From IMG/VR virus record IMGVR_UViG_3300031586_000017, positions 1 to 31,728 of that record: 31,728 nt of DNA. One strand, written 5' to 3'. Below are positions 5,556 through 27,304 of this stretch, piece by piece (within the stretch, counting starts at the first letter, position 1; every line of letters begins with the position of its first letter). A program made the translations under genes and the position numbers. Source of the DNA: a virus. The notes under the pieces were generated by a model. It saw nothing but the letters and a program-made list of their open reading frames with translations, was not told where the DNA came from and searched no databases.

Positions 5556-7775
5556 TCAAAACACCACCTTCTCCGTCTCCCCGAGGCTCGGGCCCATCGC
5601 GGCCTCGACCTTCAGCTCGAACGGGCAGTCCACCGCCTCCATCAGCCTCACCAGCTCCCGGACCATCTCCCTGCCGCCCCTCTCCGGGACGTAGAAGTCG
5701 AGCTCGTCGTGCACCTGGCTGAACGGCACGCACACGGCCGCCGCCGCGGCCAGCTGCAGCTTGAGCACGTCCCCGGACGTCCCCTGGACGGGCATGTTCT
5801 GGCCCTGCCTCTCGGCCGCCCTGAAGTTGCCGGTGTATATCTCCGGTATGTACCGCCTGCGGCCGTACGCCGTCTCCACGTAGCCGGTCTCCCGCAGCGA
5901 CCTGTGCGTCTGGTCGACCCACTCGTATATGCCCGGGTGCTTCAGCCTGTGGGCCTCCAGGAAGTCGCGGGCCTTCCGCAGCCCGACCTTGGCCTTCATC
6001 GCAAGCGCGTCCTCCCCGCCGCCGAACACCGTCAGGAAGTTCGCCGTCTTCGCCACCCTCCTGGCGAGCTCGGTGTCCTCGCCCTTGAGCAGCCCGGCCG
6101 TCTCGTCGTGGGCGTCCCTTCCCTCGCGGAATATGCGGTTCAGCTCGTAGTCCTGCGACAGGTAGGCCAGAGACCGCAGGTCAATCTGGCTGTTGTCCAG
6201 GCACGCCACCGCGAAGCCCTCGGGCGCGACGAACCCCAGCCTCACCGTCTTGTCGGTCCTCTTCGGCAGCTGCTGCATGTTCGGCTTGCTGCACGACCAT
6301 CTGCCGGTGCCCGTCCCCGTCTGGTTGAAGTCGGGGAACACGAGGCCGTGCCGCTGCAGCCCGAGGATGCTGTCGACGAACGCCGTCTTCAGCTTGTACT
6401 TCGACCTGAACTCGAGAATCATGGGCATCACCGGATGGAGCCCTTCGAGCCTCTCCAAGGCGAACCTCTCCGTGTTGGGGACGTTCCTCTTGAGCAGGCG
6501 CGAAAGGAACTTGGCGAGCCGCGCGGGCGACGTCAGCGTCTCCCACTCCAGGCCGCGGCATCCGCCCAGCCCCTGCGTCTCCCTCCACCGCCGTATGAGC
6601 TGCTGCTCCAGGCCGAGCGACATCTGCTCGAAATACGGCACGTCCACCGCCACCCCAGCCAGCTGCGCCTTGGCCATTATCCTCGGCAGGGGCTTCTCGA
6701 TGGTCTCGTAAAGCCGCCTCTCCCTCGAGACGGCCGCCTTCCACAGGCAGTCCCAGAGCTGCAGGGTCATGTCCGCGTCTCCGCCTGCGTAGTCCCTCAC
6801 GTCCTCCAGGTCGACGCCCTCCAGGGTGTCGCCTTCGGCCACGTCGGCGAACTTGGTCATCTCCACATGGAGCTCCTGGGCGACGAGCGACTTCAGTCCC
6901 AGCGGCTTCCTGTTCATGCAGTACGCCAGAAGCAGCGTGTCGTCCACGTCCTCCCAGTCGTCTACGCGCACGACACCGTTGCTGTCCAGTATGCCCAGGT
7001 CGAACTTGGCGTGGTGCATGGTGGCATGGTCCGGCACGTTGTCCTGGTGCCGGAGCAGCCTCGCCTCGTAGTACGTCCCCATTCCCGGGGAATCACTGAA
7101 GCTGGCCCCAAGCATCTCCGACCTGAGGTCCAAGCCTTTGGTCTCCGTATCCACTGCGAAGCGGTCATTGGCTATGCTCGGCCAGCCGGCTTTGTCGGCG
7201 AGAGAATAGGCGCCGTCGTTGACCTTGAGCGTCGGCCTCTTCTTGAGGCCGGAGTAGTCCTTCGCTATCACCCTCAGCAGGTCCGGGTTGTCGTCATAAG
7301 CGTTCGGCTGGTACATCGGCACCAGCGTGTAACCGTCGGCCTGTATCTTCTGCCCGTGGTACACGCCTATCTTGCCTCCCGGATAGAAGGCCTCGAGCGC
7401 CGAACTGCCGAGCGTGATTATCGTGTGCGGCCGGCACTCCGCCATGGCCTTCTCGAGCAGCGGCCTGCAGCACCGCATGGCCGTCTTGGTCGGCTTCCTT
7501 GTTTTGGGCACGTGGCACTGGACGACGTCGTCAATCCAGCAGTCGTCGAACATCAGACCTGCCCTGCCCAGCTGCCTCGCCAGCCTCTTGCCGGTCAGCC
7601 CCGAGTACCTGCGTCCTGTCGTTGTGTCTGACTCGCCGGGGCCGGCGCCGACAAGCATGATGCCGCTTTTCCTCTCCTGCGCTTTTATCAGCGGAGTGTC
7701 CTTGTATGGGCAATGTCCGCAATATGGCCCAGGCTTGCCGGGATGTCTCTTTTCTTTGAGAACCCTCTCGGCCAT
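5556..7775 (-). CDS. Uracil-DNA glycosylase-like domain fused to family A DNA polymerase
   Basis: A 739-residue replicative polymerase with an unusual N-terminus. Residues about 10-175 match family 4 UDGs: GAGPGESD (43-50), LGSSA (122-126) and four likely Fe-S cysteines C19, C22, C87, C103. A 3'-5' exonuclease follows, with DTE at D209/E211, D259 in HHAKFD and Y329/D333. The polymerase has motif A LDNSQIDLR (D527), motif B RRVAKTANFLTVFGG (K576, with Phe584 where Tyr is usual) and motif C VHDE (H689-E691). I chose ATG 7775, which forms a TGATG overlap with the previous gene and has GGAG upstream. A start 12 codons earlier is possible. It likely copies the phage genome. UDG-PolA fusions exist in some other phages as far as I recall. 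Confidence 0.93.
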   Translation of the reverse strand: MAERVLKEKRHPGKPGPYCGHCPYKDTPLIKAQERKSGIMLVGAGPGESDTTTGRRYSGLTGKRLARQLGRAGLMFDDCWIDDVVQCHVPKTRKPTKTAMRCCRPLLEKAMAECRPHTIITLGSSALEAFYPGGKIGVYHGQKIQADGYTLVPMYQPNAYDDNPDLLRVIAKDYSGLKKRPTLKVNDGAYSLADKAGWPSIANDRFAVDTETKGLDLRSEMLGASFSDSPGMGTYYEARLLRHQDNVPDHATMHHAKFDLGILDSNGVVRVDDWEDVDDTLLLAYCMNRKPLGLKSLVAQELHVEMTKFADVAEGDTLEGVDLEDVRDYAGGDADMTLQLWDCLWKAAVSRERRLYETIEKPLPRIMAKAQLAGVAVDVPYFEQMSLGLEQQLIRRWRETQGLGGCRGLEWETLTSPARLAKFLSRLLKRNVPNTERFALERLEGLHPVMPMILEFRSKYKLKTAFVDSILGLQRHGLVFPDFNQTGTGTGRWSCSKPNMQQLPKRTDKTVRLGFVAPEGFAVACLDNSQIDLRSLAYLSQDYELNRIFREGRDAHDETAGLLKGEDTELARRVAKTANFLTVFGGGEDALAMKAKVGLRKARDFLEAHRLKHPGIYEWVDQTHRSLRETGYVETAYGRRRYIPEIYTGNFRAAERQGQNMPVQGTSGDVLKLQLAAAAAVCVPFSQVHDELDFYVPERGGREMVRELVRLMEAVDCPFELKVEAAMGPSLGETEKVVF

Positions 7776-8114: not shown

Positions 8115-10008
8115 TCTGCTCCTTCGCGACCTTCGGCATTCTTGCTGCCTTCAGCGGCCTCTCCTTCGCCTTCCTGTAGAGCTCCCCCAGCCTCTCCATG
8201 GCCGCCTGACCCGGGTTCTGCCTGCCGGAGTACCACCGCGACACCTGAGACTTGTCAACTCCGAGCATAGAGGCGAGCTCCGTCTGGGAGCAGCCATTGC
8301 GGTTGCGTATGACGTTCATCATGCCCTTGACCCGGCGGCTCTCGCTGCTCTCCCTGCCCCACAGGTCCCGATACGTCTCCGGGTCGAACAGCTCCATGCC
8401 CTCTTCAGCGGCTATCGCCCTGTGCGTCAGTGTCGTGTGGTCGTAGTCTATCACGGTCTTTGGTGGGTCCCATGCAGGCTTGTTGGTCCGGCCGGTGAGC
8501 AGATTGAAAGTGTCGTAGCCGGTGATGGGAGTGTAGACCAGTGCCGTCTGCGCTTGGTCGACGAGCCTCTTCAGTCCTTCTATGCGGTCGAGCGAGTCAA
8601 CCTCTATGGTCTCTCTGCCGGATGCGTACTGGGTCTTCTTGAAGTGGTGGATGACTATCGTGGCGCAGCCGAGCGACTGCCTCAGTGACTTCAGCCAGGT
8701 CATCGCCGGCCTGACGTACTCTGGGTCACTCGCCCTATGCCCGACAAACCAGCCCCATCCATCCAGGACGACCAGGTCTGGGCAGAACTCTTCCAGCCTC
8801 GCGTACAGCTGGCCCATTATACGGCCATGGTCTACCTGGAACTGGCCGGTCTTCTGCGCCAGTAGCAAGAACCTGGAGTAGTCGGGTTCGCCTATCACAG
8901 AGGACATCAATAGCTGGTTCTCGCGTATCTGCAGGAACTTGCGCTCCTGGTCAATGTAGGCTATTCGCATCGGGCCTCTAACGGCAAGCAGCCCCCATGC
9001 CGGCAATCCTCTGGTGGCCGTTATCGAGGCGTCGAGAACTAGAGACGTCTTGCCCATCTTTGCGGGGGCGGCGATTACCGTGTTGCCCTCCTCGCCGGCC
9101 AAGACCAGCTTCTCTATGAGCGAGTCGCTCTCTGTCGGCGCTCGAATCTCGTCAAGCCTAAATGCCTGAACCTCTTCGCCCTCCTCGTCCTCGTCAGACG
9201 TCGCATATTGCCGCCTTTGTCCTGTCACTCTGACGCCTTCGTGTGCATATCGCTTGAACCCTCCCTCGAATATGCCCTTGGCCTCTTCCCAGTCCATGCC
9301 ATCCTGCGGCCAGTGCTTCTCGAAGTTGTGCTGCATGACCTCCAAGGCCGTCTCCAGGTCTATGCCCCTTGCGCGAAGCATCCCGGCTATCCTCACGAGG
9401 TTGTTCGAGCGCTCCCCTTCGGTCGTCTCCTTGAGCAGCGACGACAGCTCGTCCGTGGCCGACGTCTCCACCGACCTCGCCAGTCTGTCCCTGTTGAGCA
9501 GGTCAAAGTCGAGCACGTCCTTCAGCCACCTGTGCACGTGCAGCTGAGGAATCTGCTCGAGCTTGAGCCACTTGTATCCTTGGGTCGGCGGCACCACCGT
9601 TATGGAGCCCTCTCCCCGGACCTCCAGCTTGGGCCTGTTCTTGAACGTCTTCTGGGGCAGAGTTGGCACAGGTTCCGGCGACCGCATCAATACGCCATAG
9701 CCGCCGCCCTGCCTCTGCGACCTGAATACCGGAACCTCCGGCGGCAGCTGGCCTTTGAGCTCCTCGTAGTCCTTCGGGTCGTCGAAATCCAGCCGTATCA
9801 GGTTCTCCGATACGCCGCCGCAGACGATTGCCATTCCCCAGCCGGAGTCGACGAACCACTTCATCAGCTCGACCCTGTCTGCGCGCCTCGACTGGAACTC
9901 CTTCCACGCGACGGCCGGCAGCTTGCCCTCCCTGAGCGGTATGACGGAGCAGCCGATGGACCTGTAGTAGTCGGCCCACTTGAACAGGTCATCTGTCTTC
10001 GGTATCAA
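8092..10008 (-). CDS. Primase-polymerase/RepA-like helicase with C-terminal HTH
   Basis: A 638-residue replication protein. The N-terminal PrimPol domain has the metal-binding pair RLDFDD (D74, D76), GGGYG (101-105) and KLEVRGEGSITVVPPT (127-142). A helical primase C-terminal segment (about 197-252) follows. The RecA-like ATPase has Walker A APAKMGKTS (314-322) and Walker B LVVLDGWGW (412-420), with VIHHFKK near 452-458. A Cro-type HTH occupies about 572-594 (SQTELASMLGVDKSQVSRW). The protein can be read as primer synthesis plus helicase in one chain, and the HTH may mediate origin binding or regulation. It lies eight bases after the deoxyribosyltransferase-like gene. Confidence 0.9.
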   Translation of the reverse strand: MIPKTDDLFKWADYYRSIGCSVIPLREGKLPAVAWKEFQSRRADRVELMKWFVDSGWGMAIVCGGVSENLIRLDFDDPKDYEELKGQLPPEVPVFRSQRQGGGYGVLMRSPEPVPTLPQKTFKNRPKLEVRGEGSITVVPPTQGYKWLKLEQIPQLHVHRWLKDVLDFDLLNRDRLARSVETSATDELSSLLKETTEGERSNNLVRIAGMLRARGIDLETALEVMQHNFEKHWPQDGMDWEEAKGIFEGGFKRYAHEGVRVTGQRRQYATSDEDEEGEEVQAFRLDEIRAPTESDSLIEKLVLAGEEGNTVIAAPAKMGKTSLVLDASITATRGLPAWGLLAVRGPMRIAYIDQERKFLQIRENQLLMSSVIGEPDYSRFLLLAQKTGQFQVDHGRIMGQLYARLEEFCPDLVVLDGWGWFVGHRASDPEYVRPAMTWLKSLRQSLGCATIVIHHFKKTQYASGRETIEVDSLDRIEGLKRLVDQAQTALVYTPITGYDTFNLLTGRTNKPAWDPPKTVIDYDHTTLTHRAIAAEEGMELFDPETYRDLWGRESSESRRVKGMMNVIRNRNGCSQTELASMLGVDKSQVSRWYSGRQNPGQAAMERLGELYRKAKERPLKAARMPKVAKEQNERVLHG

Positions 10009-17100: not shown

Positions 17101-17152
17101 CTGTCCTCCTTTTCCGGAGAGTCCTCCAGGCGAGCGGGGCAAGCCTTCTTTT

Positions 17153-18502: not shown

Positions 18503-18679
18503 CTTGCGCCTCCTGAGGAGCCTTCCGAGTCTCACGGTAAGGGCTTATCCTCCGAGCCTCGCCGGCCCGCTGCCGCACACATGTCCTCGATGAATCTTCC
18601 CTCTCAGTCCCTCCTGAGTGGAGGGTGTCCCGATACTCTCAAGACAGTCCATATGTGCGGAGTGCCAACCGGTCAGGTG
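18503..18679 (-). other. Intergenic leader region with hairpins
   Basis: A 177-bp gap between the 66-aa gene and the Lys/Ala-rich gene. Apart from the bulged hairpin at 18520-18544 it contains a second stem-loop at about 18601-18627 (CTCAG, six bases, CTGAG inside CCCT/AGGG). A 35-codon ATG frame here has no ribosome site and is not called. The first bases after the upstream stop repeat the sequence after the 18065 gene's stop. Confidence 0.4.
18520..18544 (-). promoter_or_regulatory. Bulged hairpin in 5' leader, copy 1
   Basis: On the minus strand: GCC, bulged C, TT, bulged A, CCG, loop TGAGACT, CGG, AA, GGC. It is separated from the ATG at 18502 by exactly 17 nt that hold the AGGAGG site. 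Copies 2 and 3 at 18898 and 19516 share loop, bulges and spacing. This copy pairs T-A where the others pair C-G. Confidence 0.7.
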
Positions 18680-19278: not shown

Positions 19279-19319
19279 GCTTGCCTCCTTTTGTCGTACT
19301 TGGGCTAACTGGCCCATTG

Positions 19320-19386
19320 CAGCCCAGGTCAATCACAGACGCGCTACTCTCCCAAAGGTGAATTTGCCGTCTCCTGACCTGGGCTG
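19320..19386. repeat. 12-bp inverted repeat with 43-bp spacer
   Basis: CAGCCCAGGTCA at 19320-19331 and TGACCTGGGCTG at 19375-19386 are perfect inverse copies. They frame the gap between the membrane micro-ORF and the zinc-knuckle gene. The core TGACCTGGGC recurs at 18685-18694. An operator pair or recombinase arm site is possible. Confidence 0.5.
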
Positions 19387-19396
19387 GGTCGGCTCG

Positions 19397-19498
19397 TTAG
19401 AGCGTGTTCTGCAGGTAGACCACCAGCCCGGCCATCACGGGAAGTGACAGAAGGGCCATCGTCTCCAGCACGCGGCCAACCATCTGGTTGACCTTCAT
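19397..19498 (-). CDS. Small membrane peptide (33 aa)
   Basis: Starts at ATG 19498 with AGGAGG upstream and ends with TAA at 19397. The second half is one hydrophobic helix (MALLSLPVMAGLVVYLQ). The leader has hairpin copy 3 at the same 17-nt spacing as in two other genes, which is strong support for real translation. Function unknown. Confidence 0.65.
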   Translation of the reverse strand: MKVNQMVGRVLETMALLSLPVMAGLVVYLQNTL

Positions 19499-19515
19499 CG
19501 TTTGCCTCCTGAGGC

Positions 19516-19540
19516 GCCCTCCGGGTCTCACGGTAGGGGC
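19516..19540 (-). promoter_or_regulatory. Bulged hairpin in 5' leader, copy 3
   Basis: Identical to copy 2 over its 25 bases: GCC stem, bulged C and A, CCG/CGG inner stem and TGAGACC loop. It is exactly 17 nt before the ATG at 19498. Confidence 0.7.
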
Positions 19541-19666
19541 TTGTCCTCGTATGGGTCGCCAGACCCGAACGCCTCCCGAGTCCGTGTCCCAGCGGGTCCT
19601 CTTCGTCTCCGCCTCGTCCGTGCCTCCGCCTCTTCGGCTTTGGCCCAGCCCGCGAGTCGGGAAGCT

Positions 19667-20261
19667 GTCGCATCAGGCGACGTACGTATTATTGTAGTCA
19701 GTCGGACGCCTCTGTCTCGGCGTTGCCAACGCGGCCTTCATGGACCGCGCCATCGACATCCGACCGACTGTCTGCTTTCTGTTTAACCCAGGCCGCATAC
19801 CCTATAGCTGGAATCCGTCTCGTCCGCTTGCCTTTCGGCAGTCCGGTTCGGGTATGGTCACGGCCGCATCGCCGGTGTTTGTGCGGCCTGGGGACCCAAA
19901 TGACACTGGAATGCAGACTTAACCTGCCGTAGCAGATGCCTCGTGACCTTGCCCTGCGTTTCGCAGATGGCCATCTGGGCAACCCTCGGCTGGCGCTCCG
20001 TCTGCCATGTCCGCGAGGACTTACTTGAGTCCAGCCCTTGGCCTCACGGCCTGAGCATTCATCCCAATGCCTCGACTTACAGTCTGGTCTGACCGTACCC
20101 CAATCTTCGGGTTGAGCGACCTCCAATATTCAGAGGCTCTTGCCCCGCTCGTCTCGGCGACTCTCCCGAGACCCGGCCGACCAGGTCGTCTCCGCCTGCT
20201 CTTCCGGCTTTAGTGTTCTGAGGCCTTCGTCTTTCGCGGCCACCGTCGTCGTCTTATTTAA
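19667..20261 (-). ncRNA. Candidate large structured non-coding RNA
   Basis: About 600 nt without a credible protein gene but dense in pairing. Small minus-strand hairpins with stable loops: GGCC-GTGA-GGCC (20040-20051), TGCC-GAAA-GGCA (19829-19840), CTGC-TACG-GCAG (19924-19935). Longer stems: GTCTCGG/CCGAGAC (20151-20172), GAGCG plus ACCTC with partners (20114-20150) and GGCCGCA/TGCGGCC (19862-19888). Long-range stems: 19856-19862 with 19942-19948 (7 bp), 19796-19802 with 19850-19856 (7 bp) and 19696-19710 with 19755-19769 (15 bp with G-U pairs). Segments 19787-19797 and 19882-19892 offer an 11-bp alternative pairing. A TATAAT box lies just upstream. Size and phage setting recall GOLLD or ROOL RNAs, but identity is not shown and the ends are approximate. 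Confidence 0.6.
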
Positions 20262-20267
20262 CCTTAC

Positions 20268-20296
20268 ATTATAATCATATTGCTGTATTCGGCCTA
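20268..20296 (-). promoter_or_regulatory. Candidate promoter of the structured RNA
   Basis: A perfect TATAAT at 20273-20268 on the minus strand, with TGAT just upstream, close to an extended -10. The -35 region at 17 bp (TAGGCC) is poor. Transcription would begin about 20261 and enter the paired region directly. It follows the terminator of the vsr-like gene, so a new transcript is expected here. Confidence 0.45.
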
Positions 20297-20342
20297 TGGG
20301 AATGGGTCATAAGTCCTATTTTGGCCTAGTACCTTAGTCCTA

Positions 20343-20367
20343 CATAACAAGAAAGGCCCGAAGGCCT
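20343..20367 (-). terminator. Intrinsic terminator after the Vsr-like gene
   Basis: On the minus strand AGGCC, TTCG tetraloop, GGCCT and then TTCTTGTT. A stable UUCG hairpin with a T-rich tail about 28 nt after the stop codon at 20395 is a typical rho-independent terminator. Confidence 0.75.
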
Positions 20368-20394
20368 GTCACGCGCGTATATAATGTATGTCTG

Positions 20395-20769
20395 TCATCC
20401 TTCCGTCTTGACCACGCCTTTCAGGTCGTGCTCCCAGACCCGTATGACCCTCCATCCGGAGTCCTCAAGCAGCTTTGTGACCGCCTTGTCCCTTGTCCGG
20501 TTGCGCTCGACCTTTAGCGCCCAGAACGAGGCATTGTCTTCCGGCGGCTTGTAGTGCTTCGGACAGCCGTGCCAGAAGCACCCGTCCAGGAAGACGGCGA
20601 CCATCTGCTCCGCATGGGCGAAGTCTGGCTTGCCGAACACACCTTTCGGTTGGTAGTCGAAACCCAGGGCCTCAAGCGCGGGCTTGACGGCCAGCTCCAT
20701 CTTGGTGTCGCTCCCTTTTATCGAGGCCATAATCCTGGACCTCGTCTTCTTGTCTACGGTGTCGGCCAT
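20395..20769 (-). CDS. vsr: Vsr-type DNA mismatch endonuclease
   Basis: A 124-residue protein with the Vsr layout: DKKTRSRIMASIKGSDTKME at the start, GKPDF with D49, LDGCFWHGCP with D62 and H67, FWALKVERNRTRD (82-94) and WRVIRVWEHDL (106-116). Vsr nicks beside T in T:G mismatches that arise when 5-methylcytosine deaminates, and it normally partners a Dcm methylase. One is present at 11815-12720. The ATG has AAAGGAG upstream. It has its own promoter and terminator. A related homing-type or free-standing nickase role is the alternative. Confidence 0.93.
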   Translation of the reverse strand: MADTVDKKTRSRIMASIKGSDTKMELAVKPALEALGFDYQPKGVFGKPDFAHAEQMVAVFLDGCFWHGCPKHYKPPEDNASFWALKVERNRTRDKAVTKLLEDSGWRVIRVWEHDLKGVVKTEG

Positions 20770-22612: not shown

Positions 22613-25600
22613 CTAAAGCAGTCGTACCACCAGTCGCGGCGCCTCGCTGGAGCCAATGCCGGAGAACATAACGTATTCGTTATCACCGGGGTTCAGCGGC
22701 TCGATGGAGCCGATGTCGTTGGAGCTTCTCAGCCCGAACCTGGTGATGCCCTCCTTGTTTATCGCCGCTATGCCAACCGCGTTGAGGGTCAGCACCTTCC
22801 AACCGGGAGGCGTGCTCATCGCCAATGCCCCTTTGCTCGGCAGCCCGGACTGTCCTATCGTGTAGTAGTCCGGCTTCGACAGCGGACACGTCACGCCGTT
22901 TTCGCCGACAAGCGTCAGGCTCCACGCGCTGTCCACGAGTATCTCAGTAGTGTAAAAGAGCAGATATGCCTCAAGCACGTCGGCGGCAGCCGGCAGATTT
23001 GTCGTATCCAGCTCTATGAATCCGCGCATGATGTCCCACGCTGGCAAGCTGGTGCGCCTCTGCCCAATCATCAATTGACCATGGTCATTAAACGGCGCGT
23101 ATCCGCACTCCGCGGCGTTGTGACAGTCGGCGTAGTCTACGAGGCTCCTGTTGTACAGATAGCCATCGTGGTATGCGCTGAACATCTGATAGCGTTTCGC
23201 GTCCCAAAGTTGCCATTTCGTCTGCCACAGGTCGTTAGACGCCACCCACGAATGCTCCACGCCTTCTAGATGATAGGCCTCGTCGAGTATTGCTGGGTTG
23301 CGGACGTTATCCAACCGCAATGTTATCCTCGTCGATAGGTCATAGCCAAGCACCTTCGGGAACAAGTCTGTCTGCGCGGCCGTCGGGAACACATGAAGAG
23401 CCTGGCATCTGAACTTAGACGCCTTGAACCGCTCGACAAGCATAAAAGCCTGGGCGGCGGCATCTGCCGCGTTCTGTATCAGCGACTCTTTTCTGACTAT
23501 CGACCTCGGTCCTTGGCTGGCCTGAGACGTCGGGTCGAGCATCGACTGCTCGCCTATCGTCGGCCCTGAGATACTGGCCTCGTTATAAATGAAGGTATCG
23601 TCGTCTGACAGTTCTGGCTTGACGTATTTTGAGTCGTTGTCGTCATCTTTAAATGTCGCCTGCGGCGTGTTGTATGGGGACACGGTCCGAGCGATTGAAT
23701 CCTGAAACGTGACCACGCCGTCAGCCGCAACGAACAGAAGCCCGTCTTCCGCCTCGGCTGTCTTCTGCAGCGCCTCCATGATGTTGACGCCGCCAACAGC
23801 CGGAGCTATCTCTGTGACCGTCACCTGCCCAGTGTCGATGCTGGTCAAGGCGAGCGGCCACTGCACCTCAAGCAATATGTCCCTTATCCTGTAGCCGCTC
23901 GGCACCGACGGAAATTTCTTGAGGTAGCCTTTGCTTCCGCTGTACTCGTAAGACAGGTTATACAGCATCGTAACCGCCAGCGTATCATAGTCGATTGCGT
24001 CAATGTAGTTTATCTCGGCGGCGTCGTCGTCATATATCTTGATGGACTGGCCCACGACCAGCCCGTATGCATTTTCGACGTAGACCACATTCTGACCTGC
24101 GGCGGCCTCTCCGTCCAGCTTCGGGTTGGCGTCGACTAGCCTGTATCGAGCGAAACTCTTGAACACGTCCACGCATGACAGCTGTATTATCGGCGTGAAA
24201 CCGCCTTTGTCCTCCAGCCAGTCGGGCACATATGACTCGCTGACTCCGTACCATACCGGATAATAGATGCCATTGTATCTGTAGCGCAGTCTTGTGAGAG
24301 TCAGAGGCCTGATATGCGGATAGAAGGCGCCTTCCGTGTTGTTCCGCCACCAGTCACCGGTGGCATTATTCAGATTAAACACGGCCGTTCCGGCCTCGAC
24401 GCGGTTCAGCTCGTGAAGTCTGCCTCTTTTGGTGCTGAGCTCCATGAGGTAGAAGGTGATGTCGGTCCATGACGGCGACACCGTAGATATGGCCTGGTCA
24501 AACGCCTGCTCAAGCAACATGGAGCCGTAGTCGTAGTCAATCGTCATGTCGTCGCCGTAAAACGTCTCTCCGCATGCGGTAAGCAATACCGCCCTGTAGT
24601 GATAGAGCACTTCAGGGTCAAGCCCTGATACGTCGTCATAGAACTGGCTGTCTTTGTGCATGCCAGACTGCGGGTCTGTCTCGCTTCCGTAGTTCGTGTC
24701 AGGCCCATACTCGAACCATGTCGTGCAGCTGTCGCCCTCGTCCTCCGCCACATGCCCGCGAAGGCGGGCGGTGGTTCCGGTATACATGACAGGCGTGTCC
24801 GTCACGACCTGCGCATTGACCCACAAGGCGACAATGACAAGGTAGTCGCACATTGCCCTGAGATAGCCAGAGCCTCCGTTGAGCGAGATTCCGGCCTGCA
24901 GGTCGTCGACCTCGTCTATCGTCCAGGCGTCTCCTGTATACGGGTTTGTGTAGAACAGCTCGCACACCATACCAGGGCCATTGTCGCCGCCATATGACGT
25001 CTTTATGTCGCCGTCGAAGACCGTTCCGTGGGTGCGCAATGCCCTGCGGTAGTCTCCGCCGCCGAAGACCGGATAGGTGTTGTGCCCGACTCGCGCTATC
25101 CACTTGACCTTGACTATGCCGCCAGTGCGCCTGCATGGGTCGGCCATCTCGTACAGGTCGCGTCTCCACTGCGGCGCGGAATAGTGCTGCTTCTCGTATA
25201 CGCGGTTGCCGGTGAATCCGCCGAAACCCCAGTCAGACGTGTAGAACTCGCTGTCGGCATCAAGCAGCCTGTACCAATTCGGCATGCCTGGCGGGCTTCC
25301 CGTGCTGAAGCGTATGCCCGTCTCGGCCCCTGCCCCGACAGGAGGAAGCCTGTTGAAGTCTGTCGCCAAGAACAGCCGGACCTCGGCCCCGTAGCGGTAG
25401 CCGACGCTGTTGTGCGCGTATGCCCTGAGGTAGTAGTACACACGTTCCGGCATGTTCTGCATCGACAGGCTGTATGCCTCGGCGCTGAAGGAGCCGGTCT
25501 CCTCTATGTGGTGCCCGTCGTAGTCGGAGTCTTCTGGCGCCGTGTCGCCCGGGTCCGAGTGCGGCGTGGTGTCGTACACGAAGCCGCGGATGTCCGGCGT

Positions 25601-27304
25601 CGCTCCGCCGATGTCGGTTATTTCGCCGTTGGCCTCGATGGTCGAGCCTGAAGGGCACGACGGGCTTAGCGTCACGACCACGGGCGTGTCGGCCGGGGTG
25701 GTGAACGACTCCTCCTCGCCGTAGACGGCCCCCAGTGTCGGGTGCGTCACCTTTGCCATGAAGTAGTAGGTCGTCACAGGGTCCAACGGCGTCATCGTGA
25801 GCGCGAAATACTGTCCGGCCTCGTAGTCCTCGTACACCTCTTCGGTGTAAAAGCCGGAAGATGTTCCCCATATGAAGCCTATAGTGTCTGGCGCGCCGGT
25901 GCCGCTGTAGTAGCCCTCTCCCAAAGCTGAATGGGCCTCTATCTCAGACGCCGGAAAGGTGTGGACCACTATTGTTGTCGTGAATGACTGCTCTGGACCA
26001 TAGCCCCAGCCAGCAGAGTTATGCGCTTTGGCGCGGTAATAGTATGTCTTGCCGGACTCAAGCGACGTCATTGAAAGTGAGAAGACCCCCAAACCAAACG
26101 AGCCTGACTCGGTGAACTCGCTGTCGTATTCTCCCGTAGCTTCGCCGATGTCAAAACCACGTATGTCAGCGTTCTCGCCGCCGGTGGCCTCTATTGTTCC
26201 GTTGCCTGTCGCCGAGTCTTCGTCAACGTCGGTCGCCGCCAGCGTCGTCACGTCCGGCTCTGCCGTTTCGCTCAGGTCGAACAGTTCCGCCCAGGCCCAG
26301 ACTCTCTTGCCTGGCTGCGCATAGTTCGCCGCGTTGGCGGCGTAAATATAGCGGTAGTCTTCCTTGCTGTGGAGGGCACGACTCAGCGTGTCCTTAAGGC
26401 TTCCTCCGTCGGAATAATAGTCTCCCGTGGCGATGTACGCATACATGGTGCCGTAGTCGCCTATGCCTTCGTCCCTCTCTATCTCGAAAAAATAGACCGT
26501 GTCGAGGAGCGGGGAATACCAGTAATCCCGGTACCTGACGACGTCTTTCAGCTCCTCGAGGCCGATGACGTTTGGCCCGTCGCAGTCCCACCAGAACCAC
26601 ACGAACAACGCCTTGCAGTCGTTGTTGTACAGCCCGTTCTCGTCGTCCACGTAGTCGCTCAGGCCCCAGAACCACCACCCGGCATATGTGCCTTCGTAGT
26701 TGTCCAGCAAAGCCTTGCATCTGTGGGTGAAGTTGCCGCTGAAATGGCCCTCTCCTTTGTCGCAGTAGAGGCGGCCTTCCAGAGACGAGCTCTGAAACGC
26801 GGTGACCGTCACCCGGTCGGCTGTCTTGGATATTTGGACACCCCCCCCGGGGTCGACTTCAGTATAGGTGGTAAGGTCCTCGGTCGGGTCGGAGAAGGCG
26901 CGCCTGGGCATATCGTCCAGACGGAGAAGCTTGAGCTCCTCCAGCAGAGGCGAGACGGCCTCGGTCGACGCGTTCTTGGCCAGCCTCTTGTCGCCGAACA
27001 AGCGCCTCTCCAAGGCGAGCTGCTTCTCTTCGCCGACGCTTTTGACGGCCTCCGACCAGTCAGGCGGGGTCAGCTTCTCGATTAGCCGGTTCCGCTCCGC
27101 CAGGAGCTGCTTCAGCCGCAGCTTGGACTCTGCGGCGTAGGCCCTGAACCTGCCCGTCTTGATGTATTTGCCGGGGTTGGCTCTGGCTATAGCCGCCTGT
27201 CTATTGCTTTCGGCGATGTGCTGCTCGACAAGGACATAGCAAGCCTGCAACTTGTCGAAGTCTGTCTTAATAGCCAGCGGATATGTTACGACGGCTTTTT
27301 TCAT
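22613..27304 (-). CDS. Tail hub/fibre protein with Fn3-like repeats
   Basis: The largest gene, 1563 residues. Residues 20-130 are helical and may form a coiled coil. Fn3-like beta repeats lie at about 352-440, 442-535, 540-645 and 835-920, each ending in patterns like YYYRAKAHNSAGWGYG or TYYFMAKVTH. About 922-1385 resembles hub proteins that bind the tail tip (FNLNNATGDWW, PHIRPLTLTRLRYRYNG). The last 180 residues have a DNRLRE-like beta domain (ELDTTNLPAAADVLEAYLLF). It follows the tape measure gene through an ATGA overlap with a weak ribosome site. It likely closes the tail tip and binds the host surface. The function of the individual domains is inferred. Confidence 0.85.
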   Translation of the reverse strand: MKKAVVTYPLAIKTDFDKLQACYVLVEQHIAESNRQAAIARANPGKYIKTGRFRAYAAESKLRLKQLLAERNRLIEKLTPPDWSEAVKSVGEEKQLALERRLFGDKRLAKNASTEAVSPLLEELKLLRLDDMPRRAFSDPTEDLTTYTEVDPGGGVQISKTADRVTVTAFQSSSLEGRLYCDKGEGHFSGNFTHRCKALLDNYEGTYAGWWFWGLSDYVDDENGLYNNDCKALFVWFWWDCDGPNVIGLEELKDVVRYRDYWYSPLLDTVYFFEIERDEGIGDYGTMYAYIATGDYYSDGGSLKDTLSRALHSKEDYRYIYAANAANYAQPGKRVWAWAELFDLSETAEPDVTTLAATDVDEDSATGNGTIEATGGENADIRGFDIGEATGEYDSEFTESGSFGLGVFSLSMTSLESGKTYYYRAKAHNSAGWGYGPEQSFTTTIVVHTFPASEIEAHSALGEGYYSGTGAPDTIGFIWGTSSGFYTEEVYEDYEAGQYFALTMTPLDPVTTYYFMAKVTHPTLGAVYGEEESFTTPADTPVVVTLSPSCPSGSTIEANGEITDIGGATPDIRGFVYDTTPHSDPGDTAPEDSDYDGHHIEETGSFSAEAYSLSMQNMPERVYYYLRAYAHNSVGYRYGAEVRLFLATDFNRLPPVGAGAETGIRFSTGSPPGMPNWYRLLDADSEFYTSDWGFGGFTGNRVYEKQHYSAPQWRRDLYEMADPCRRTGGIVKVKWIARVGHNTYPVFGGGDYRRALRTHGTVFDGDIKTSYGGDNGPGMVCELFYTNPYTGDAWTIDEVDDLQAGISLNGGSGYLRAMCDYLVIVALWVNAQVVTDTPVMYTGTTARLRGHVAEDEGDSCTTWFEYGPDTNYGSETDPQSGMHKDSQFYDDVSGLDPEVLYHYRAVLLTACGETFYGDDMTIDYDYGSMLLEQAFDQAISTVSPSWTDITFYLMELSTKRGRLHELNRVEAGTAVFNLNNATGDWWRNNTEGAFYPHIRPLTLTRLRYRYNGIYYPVWYGVSESYVPDWLEDKGGFTPIIQLSCVDVFKSFARYRLVDANPKLDGEAAAGQNVVYVENAYGLVVGQSIKIYDDDAAEINYIDAIDYDTLAVTMLYNLSYEYSGSKGYLKKFPSVPSGYRIRDILLEVQWPLALTSIDTGQVTVTEIAPAVGGVNIMEALQKTAEAEDGLLFVAADGVVTFQDSIARTVSPYNTPQATFKDDDNDSKYVKPELSDDDTFIYNEASISGPTIGEQSMLDPTSQASQGPRSIVRKESLIQNAADAAAQAFMLVERFKASKFRCQALHVFPTAAQTDLFPKVLGYDLSTRITLRLDNVRNPAILDEAYHLEGVEHSWVASNDLWQTKWQLWDAKRYQMFSAYHDGYLYNRSLVDYADCHNAAECGYAPFNDHGQLMIGQRRTSLPAWDIMRGFIELDTTNLPAAADVLEAYLLFYTTEILVDSAWSLTLVGENGVTCPLSKPDYYTIGQSGLPSKGALAMSTPPGWKVLTLNAVGIAAINKEGITRFGLRSSNDIGSIEPLNPGDNEYVMFSGIGSSEAPRLVVRLL

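Follow-up and report, generated by a model that had tools for sequence, protein, structure and literature searches.

A candidate structured phage RNA whose conserved 5' domain is predicted to pair with the leader of a lipoprotein gene

What is encoded in the largest gap between called genes (19499-20394) of a phage contig on which every called gene lies on the minus strand? The sequence-only reading of the window (the whole 31.7-kb stretch of DNA analysed) had proposed that a structured RNA of about 600 nt occupied a gene-free stretch there, perhaps as a member of the GOLLD or ROOL RNAs. The absence of genes was confirmed, since codon log-odds across the stretch are negative in six of six frames, compared with 0.13-0.47 for the called genes. 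A Pfam search with the 142-aa frame at 19698-20126 returned no match, in agreement with the earlier statement that the frames crossing the stretch carry no domain.

The GOLLD and ROOL RNAs, which form homo-oligomeric RNA cages, are often found next to tRNA islands. The stretch has in common with them that it would be a strongly structured, non-coding phage RNA in a gene-free stretch; however, a tRNA island is absent from the window, as a tRNA and tmRNA search over its 31.7 kb found none. No Rfam family matched the stretch at gathering level, and at E values up to 10 the region 19300-20450 yielded one match, to a human lncRNA, which is meaningless. The covariance models of GOLLD, ROOL and OLE, with which the sequence-only reading had proposed to check the candidate, were unmatched at both levels, and OLE was rejected on the same basis; the GOLLD/ROOL identity was thus not borne out. 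Size and number of hairpins do not by themselves make a GOLLD or a ROOL. GOLLD members are often longer than 800 nt, and it is their 3' region that is conserved, the 5' one less so (PMC12286853). Here, in contrast, it is the 5' part that is conserved and the 3' part that is not, and the conserved part spans 145 nt. Because the Rfam families are unmatched, the RNA was assigned to no known family; it is probably a new regulatory RNA of phages and none of the known giant RNAs.

The conserved part came from a comparison with relatives drawn through the neighbouring phosphatase-like gene, which gave four contigs that represent two lineages (L005, and L003/L004/L006, which are identical across the RNA region), so that there are three distinct RNA sequences in all. 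In both lineages, the segment that follows the Vsr-like gene matches window positions 20251-20105 with 80-81% identity, and it occupies the same place, with the -10 region and a conserved block upstream of it. The covariance model R1, built from the three sequences, scores those same sequences at 146-165 bits. The indels are not multiples of three and interrupt the reading frames, which argues against a conserved protein frame. The features of this region are as follows:

20354-20367, minus strand: terminator of the upstream Vsr-like gene, AGGCC-TTCG-GGCCT with a T-rich tail, a motif found in the sequence
20297-20330, minus strand: conserved block CTAGGNCAA..TAGNAC..GACC, 5' of the promoter, from alignment A5
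20268-20279, minus strand: -10 region, TATGAT at 20279-20274 and TATAAT at 20273-20268, from a promoter-like scan and conserved in the relatives
20105-20251, minus strand: conserved 5' RNA domain of about 145 nt, three lineages
20222-20241, minus strand: P1 hairpin, GGCC-loop-GGCC, with invariant arms and a loop variable in sequence and length
20173-20207, minus strand: P2 hairpin, closing CCGG/CCGG and inner CAGG/CCUG, kept in three of three
20151-20172, minus strand: P3 hairpin, GUCUCGG-loop-CCGAG(A/G)C, kept, with one U-A to U-G change
20114-20150, minus strand: P4 (GAGCG/CGCUC), internal loop GGGCAAG and P5 hairpin, two pairs of P5 being changed on both sides
19660-20104, minus strand: lineage-specific structured 3' extension, including a 15-bp helix, from fold z and the lack of a homologue in the relatives

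The scan found a promoter-like pair with TATGAT as its -10, and the -10 region of the relatives in alignment A5 reads as a conserved TATNAT followed by TGTAAGG. Both the -10 box that had been placed directly before the RNA and the terminator just upstream were therefore upheld. The block 5' of the promoter has inverted-repeat character (AGGACTAAAGTCCT in L006) and is found at 20330-20297 (minus strand) in the window, at 7392-7440 in L006 and at 8180-8225 in L005; judging by its sequence, it is perhaps a candidate activator site.

A six-helix structure of the domain was drawn by hand from single folds, and this is the structure that was counted because RNAalifold, when run on alignment A5, mixed in DNA from upstream of the promoter. 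Each of the 31 pairs is a standard one in every one of the three sequences (93 of 93 pair cells); two pairs have changed on both sides and two others on one side. Covariation alone is weak evidence, since there are three sequences and 41 of 500 shuffles equal what was observed. Where the changes fall says more for the structure than covariation does: variable columns make up 6 of 62 in stems versus 40 of 87 in unpaired positions (p 1.7e-6), a test that is flattered somewhat because the structure was drawn from the same sequences. Taken at the level of sequence, these observations support the notion that the stretch encodes a structured non-coding RNA. The earlier proposal of a structured RNA thus stood in that its structure is kept in three lineages, with few compensatory changes, and failed in its size, the unit being about 145 rather than about 600 nt.

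The folding of the whole stretch deserves attention in this respect. On the minus strand, the 616 nt have a fold energy z of -4.98 relative to shuffles (-4.1 with fewer shuffles), the second lowest of 46 minus-strand windows (contig mean -1.1, sd 1.4), whereas the plus strand folds less well (-2.97), and 20001-20220 has the lowest z of 64 minus-strand windows of 220 nt. The three tetraloop hairpins announced by the sequence-only reading are present in the sequence, as is its 15-bp long-range helix (19769-19755 with 19710-19696); the MFE fold uses the helix and the hairpins GGCC-GTGA-GGCC (20051-20040) and TGCC-GAAA-GGCA (19840-19829), but not CTGC-TACG-GCAG (19935-19924). Within the 3' extension, z is -3.7 for 19660-19900 and -1.35 for 19880-20105, and these 3' 440 nt or so, of moderate stability, have no sequence homologue in the relatives compared. 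In L006, a different segment of about 300 nt, structured and very stable (z -5.5), follows the domain and precedes an ORF, while in L005, where only the 5' domain is present, some 30 nt separate it from an ORF that has a ribosome site. The idea of a single unit of about 600 nt was accordingly abandoned, as conservation ends near 20105 and the L005 ORF follows almost at once: since the rest is not conserved, the conserved RNA measures about 145 nt, and what lies 3' of it is either a lineage-specific extension or an element of its own.

A second structured element was noticed that starts at or just past the stop codon of a cargo ORF, at 19401-19301 (minus strand) in the window, at 8224-8294 and 8600-8705 in L006 and at 8640-8707 in L005. 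It has an outer stem resembling CTAGAAY/RTTCTAG and an inner stem in three compensatory versions (CTGCCCA/TGGGCAG, CTGCTC/GAGCAG and CAGCCCAGGTC/GACCTGGGCTG). Its fold z in the window is -5.3 (19300-19392), and a pattern scan of viral contigs for it matched only the L006 lineage.

Searches for further relatives of the RNA were carried out at several levels. No DNA similar to the stretch was found in isolated phages, three RNA patterns run over viral contigs uncovered no lineage outside the known relatives, and scans of genome contigs with the phosphatase and the major tail protein gave no prophage relative. One covariance-model match (L050, 26 bits) was rejected because it falls within a gene for a protein and because its contig had been picked for the motif. 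The RNA is absent at that place from the relative L059, whose phosphatase is 49% identical, and L056 and L068, both of them fragments, gave no RNA match. In the collection of isolated phages searched, the major tail protein had no match and terminase identity was always below 60%, so that, judged by these sequences, the phage family is far from the isolated phages of that collection. A separate observation concerns a 1563-aa tail-type protein (22613-27304 of the window, minus strand), which diverges strongly between relatives and shows a weak PHROG minor-tail match and a sub-threshold match to a purple acid phosphatase N-domain.

The clue to a possible function of the domain came from its complementarity to the leader of another gene of the same phage, for which the relevant features are:

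20139-20151, minus strand: antisense core CGAGCGGGGCAAG, reverse complement of lipoprotein leader positions 17143-17131
17126-17143, minus strand: target block CUUGCCCCGCUCGCCUGG, part of the lipoprotein leader, with all 18 nt shared by L006
16600-17100, minus strand: predicted lipoprotein gene with lipobox LLASC, the proposed target, with an L006 ortholog carrying the same lipobox

The longest perfect sense-strand complement of the RNA in the window (13 nt, shuffle P 0.053) and that in L006 (17 nt, reached in 0 of 300 shuffles) both sit in the leaders of these orthologous lipoprotein genes, whose proteins are 40% identical. The net pairing energy amounts to -28.0 kcal/mol in the window and -28.9 in L006, while shuffling the leaders yields -6.5 (sd 3.0) and -9.5 (sd 3.6), with no shuffle reaching the real value, and the best other windows sampled reach -16.2 and -18.4, respectively. 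Among 43 gene starts, the lipoprotein ranks first, with -27.6 versus -16.2 for the next. When corrected for accessibility, it takes first place in L006 and second place in the window (-9.5 versus -10.3). Raw hybrid-energy scans in 60-nt windows could not by themselves rank the window site, being too noisy in a genome so rich in G+C. The leader has otherwise diverged around the identical 18-nt block. This block also lies within an open frame (LPRSPG), which speaks against the antisense reading, but its six codons are all identical between the phages, silent positions included. RNA and target occur together in two lineages, and the RNA alone was counted in three; covariation is therefore thin, given only two lineages with both partners and only three distinct RNA sequences.

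The predicted fold exposes parts of GGGGCAAG, in the window most of GGGCAAG and in L006 GCAAG; P3/P4 bury some of the pairing region. For the RNA of the L006 lineage, the sense target that comes second (accessibility-corrected -15.3) is again in the lipoprotein mRNA, at the codons of the lipobox, where L006 positions 7501-7518 face codons at 14901-14910 of L029; this RNA segment is absent from the window RNA. Another candidate pairing, that between CCGGGUCUC of the RNA and GAGAC(C/U)CGG in the leaders of genes 18505, 18880 and 19498, looked attractive but was discarded, as its net energies (-3.5 to -5.9) do not stand out. These three consecutive small genes have in common the leader AAGCCCYTACCGTGAGACYCGGARGGC, just 5' of the ribosome site (copies at 18533, 18911 and 19529, minus strand), of which there is one copy in the L006 lineage (L029 13576); from its sequence, it may be a cis-regulatory element that these genes share.

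All these observations can be integrated by assuming that the locus is a phage gene for a trans-acting antisense RNA, whose conserved 5' domain pairs with the lipoprotein leader and represses the lipoprotein gene, a reading to which we assign a probability of roughly 0.6. The stretch is non-coding, the structure of its 5' domain is conserved and so is the complementarity to the target; we infer its transcription, its action in trans and the repression. Specifically, a structured regulatory RNA would be transcribed on the minus strand from about 20266, and its domain of about 145 nt would display GGGGCAAG in an internal loop. This loop may nucleate pairing in trans with CUUGCCCC of the lipoprotein mRNA leader, and the pairing would grow into an imperfect duplex of 31-34 nt, perfect over 13 bp in the window and 17 bp in L006. 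In the window, the imperfect duplex reaches about 17113 (leader 17143-17113) and would stop just 5' of the ribosome site; the signal peptide begins at an ATG preceded by GGAGGAC. The duplex would probably block ribosome loading, mark itself for cleavage, or both, leaving the lipoprotein repressed. Repression by occlusion or cleavage is likelier than activation because, when the core is held unpaired, the Shine-Dalgarno sequence of the leader is not freed. With a conserved -10, a target 3 kb downstream and a complementarity to its leader that is conserved, in two lineages only, the sequence has the features expected of the class of trans-acting antisense RNAs.

The notion of a cis-acting 5' leader, which would serve the cargo gene behind it as a riboregulator or an attenuator, draws on the ORFs found about 30 nt after the domain in L005, where the arrangement is like that of a 5' UTR, and about 300 nt after it in L006. 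However, the genes behind the domain are unrelated across the three lineages, the next confident gene start in the window (19498) is some 600 nt off, and such a leader would leave the complementarity to the lipoprotein leader unexplained; this explanation was considered unlikely. Even less probable is that the roughly 600 nt form one folded body, a large ornate RNA resembling GOLLD or ROOL or founding a new class of this kind: although the z of the whole stretch is about -5, its 480-nt counterpart in L006 reaches -4.6 and a long hairpin ends both, no Rfam match exists, the 3' 440 nt lack a homologue and L005 possesses the 5' domain only. Finally, an inverted DNA site (an operator or other protein-binding site) at the RNA and lipoprotein genes, the RNA having a different function, keeps its place as a rival because an inverted copy of the DNA and complementary RNAs look alike here and the motif has only two copies in the window and two in the L006 locus, at these loci, but it is improbable, considering that in the RNA gene the motif is placed some 120 nt into the predicted transcript, where the surrounding fold is conserved and much of the motif is stem, and that the similarity spans 31-34 nt with unequal mismatches.

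The trans-acting antisense RNA would have a precedent in phages. The c4 RNA is structured and acts through short complementary segments on the antirepressor operon of the same transcript, and the CI RNA of phage P4 is a similar phage antisense RNA. The RNA described here is like c4 in being a structured phage RNA with short complementary segments and a phage gene as target, the pairing being in this case predicted. It is unlike c4 in that the lipoprotein leader is 3 kb away, in its make-up of a domain of about 145 nt plus a structured extension and in having no Rfam match, and so no kinship with it in sequence or structure. The c4 RNA of phages P1 and P7 is a phage-encoded antisense RNA controlling phage gene expression, and STnc6030 of prophage BTP1 limits other phages by base-pairing in antisense with a phage gene (PMC12197685). 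Similarly, svsR of prophage NC-SV limits other phages by lowering the expression of host receptor genes (PMC12803456).

As for the target, family searches with the lipoprotein gave no known family, and its AlphaFold2 model (pLDDT 42) was of no use. Its gene is located near the integrase, which suggests, by analogy with what is generally known of such genes in other phages, a surface protein for lysogenic conversion or superinfection exclusion. Exclusion, which we infer, is plausible because prophage RNAs with anti-phage action are known; the likeness to STnc6030 and svsR is one of described function, and targets and hosts differ. A broader proposal, that of a modular RNA family in which an antisense 5' domain is joined to interchangeable structured 3' modules of 300-440 nt and controls a surface lipoprotein, excluding competing phages, is possible but doubtful. 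Few phage RNAs are known to have a predicted target, and most of those that do belong to enterobacterial phages. The one described here combines a conserved structure that Rfam lacks with a concrete target site that is conserved in a distant relative, which makes this a testable RNA-target pair.
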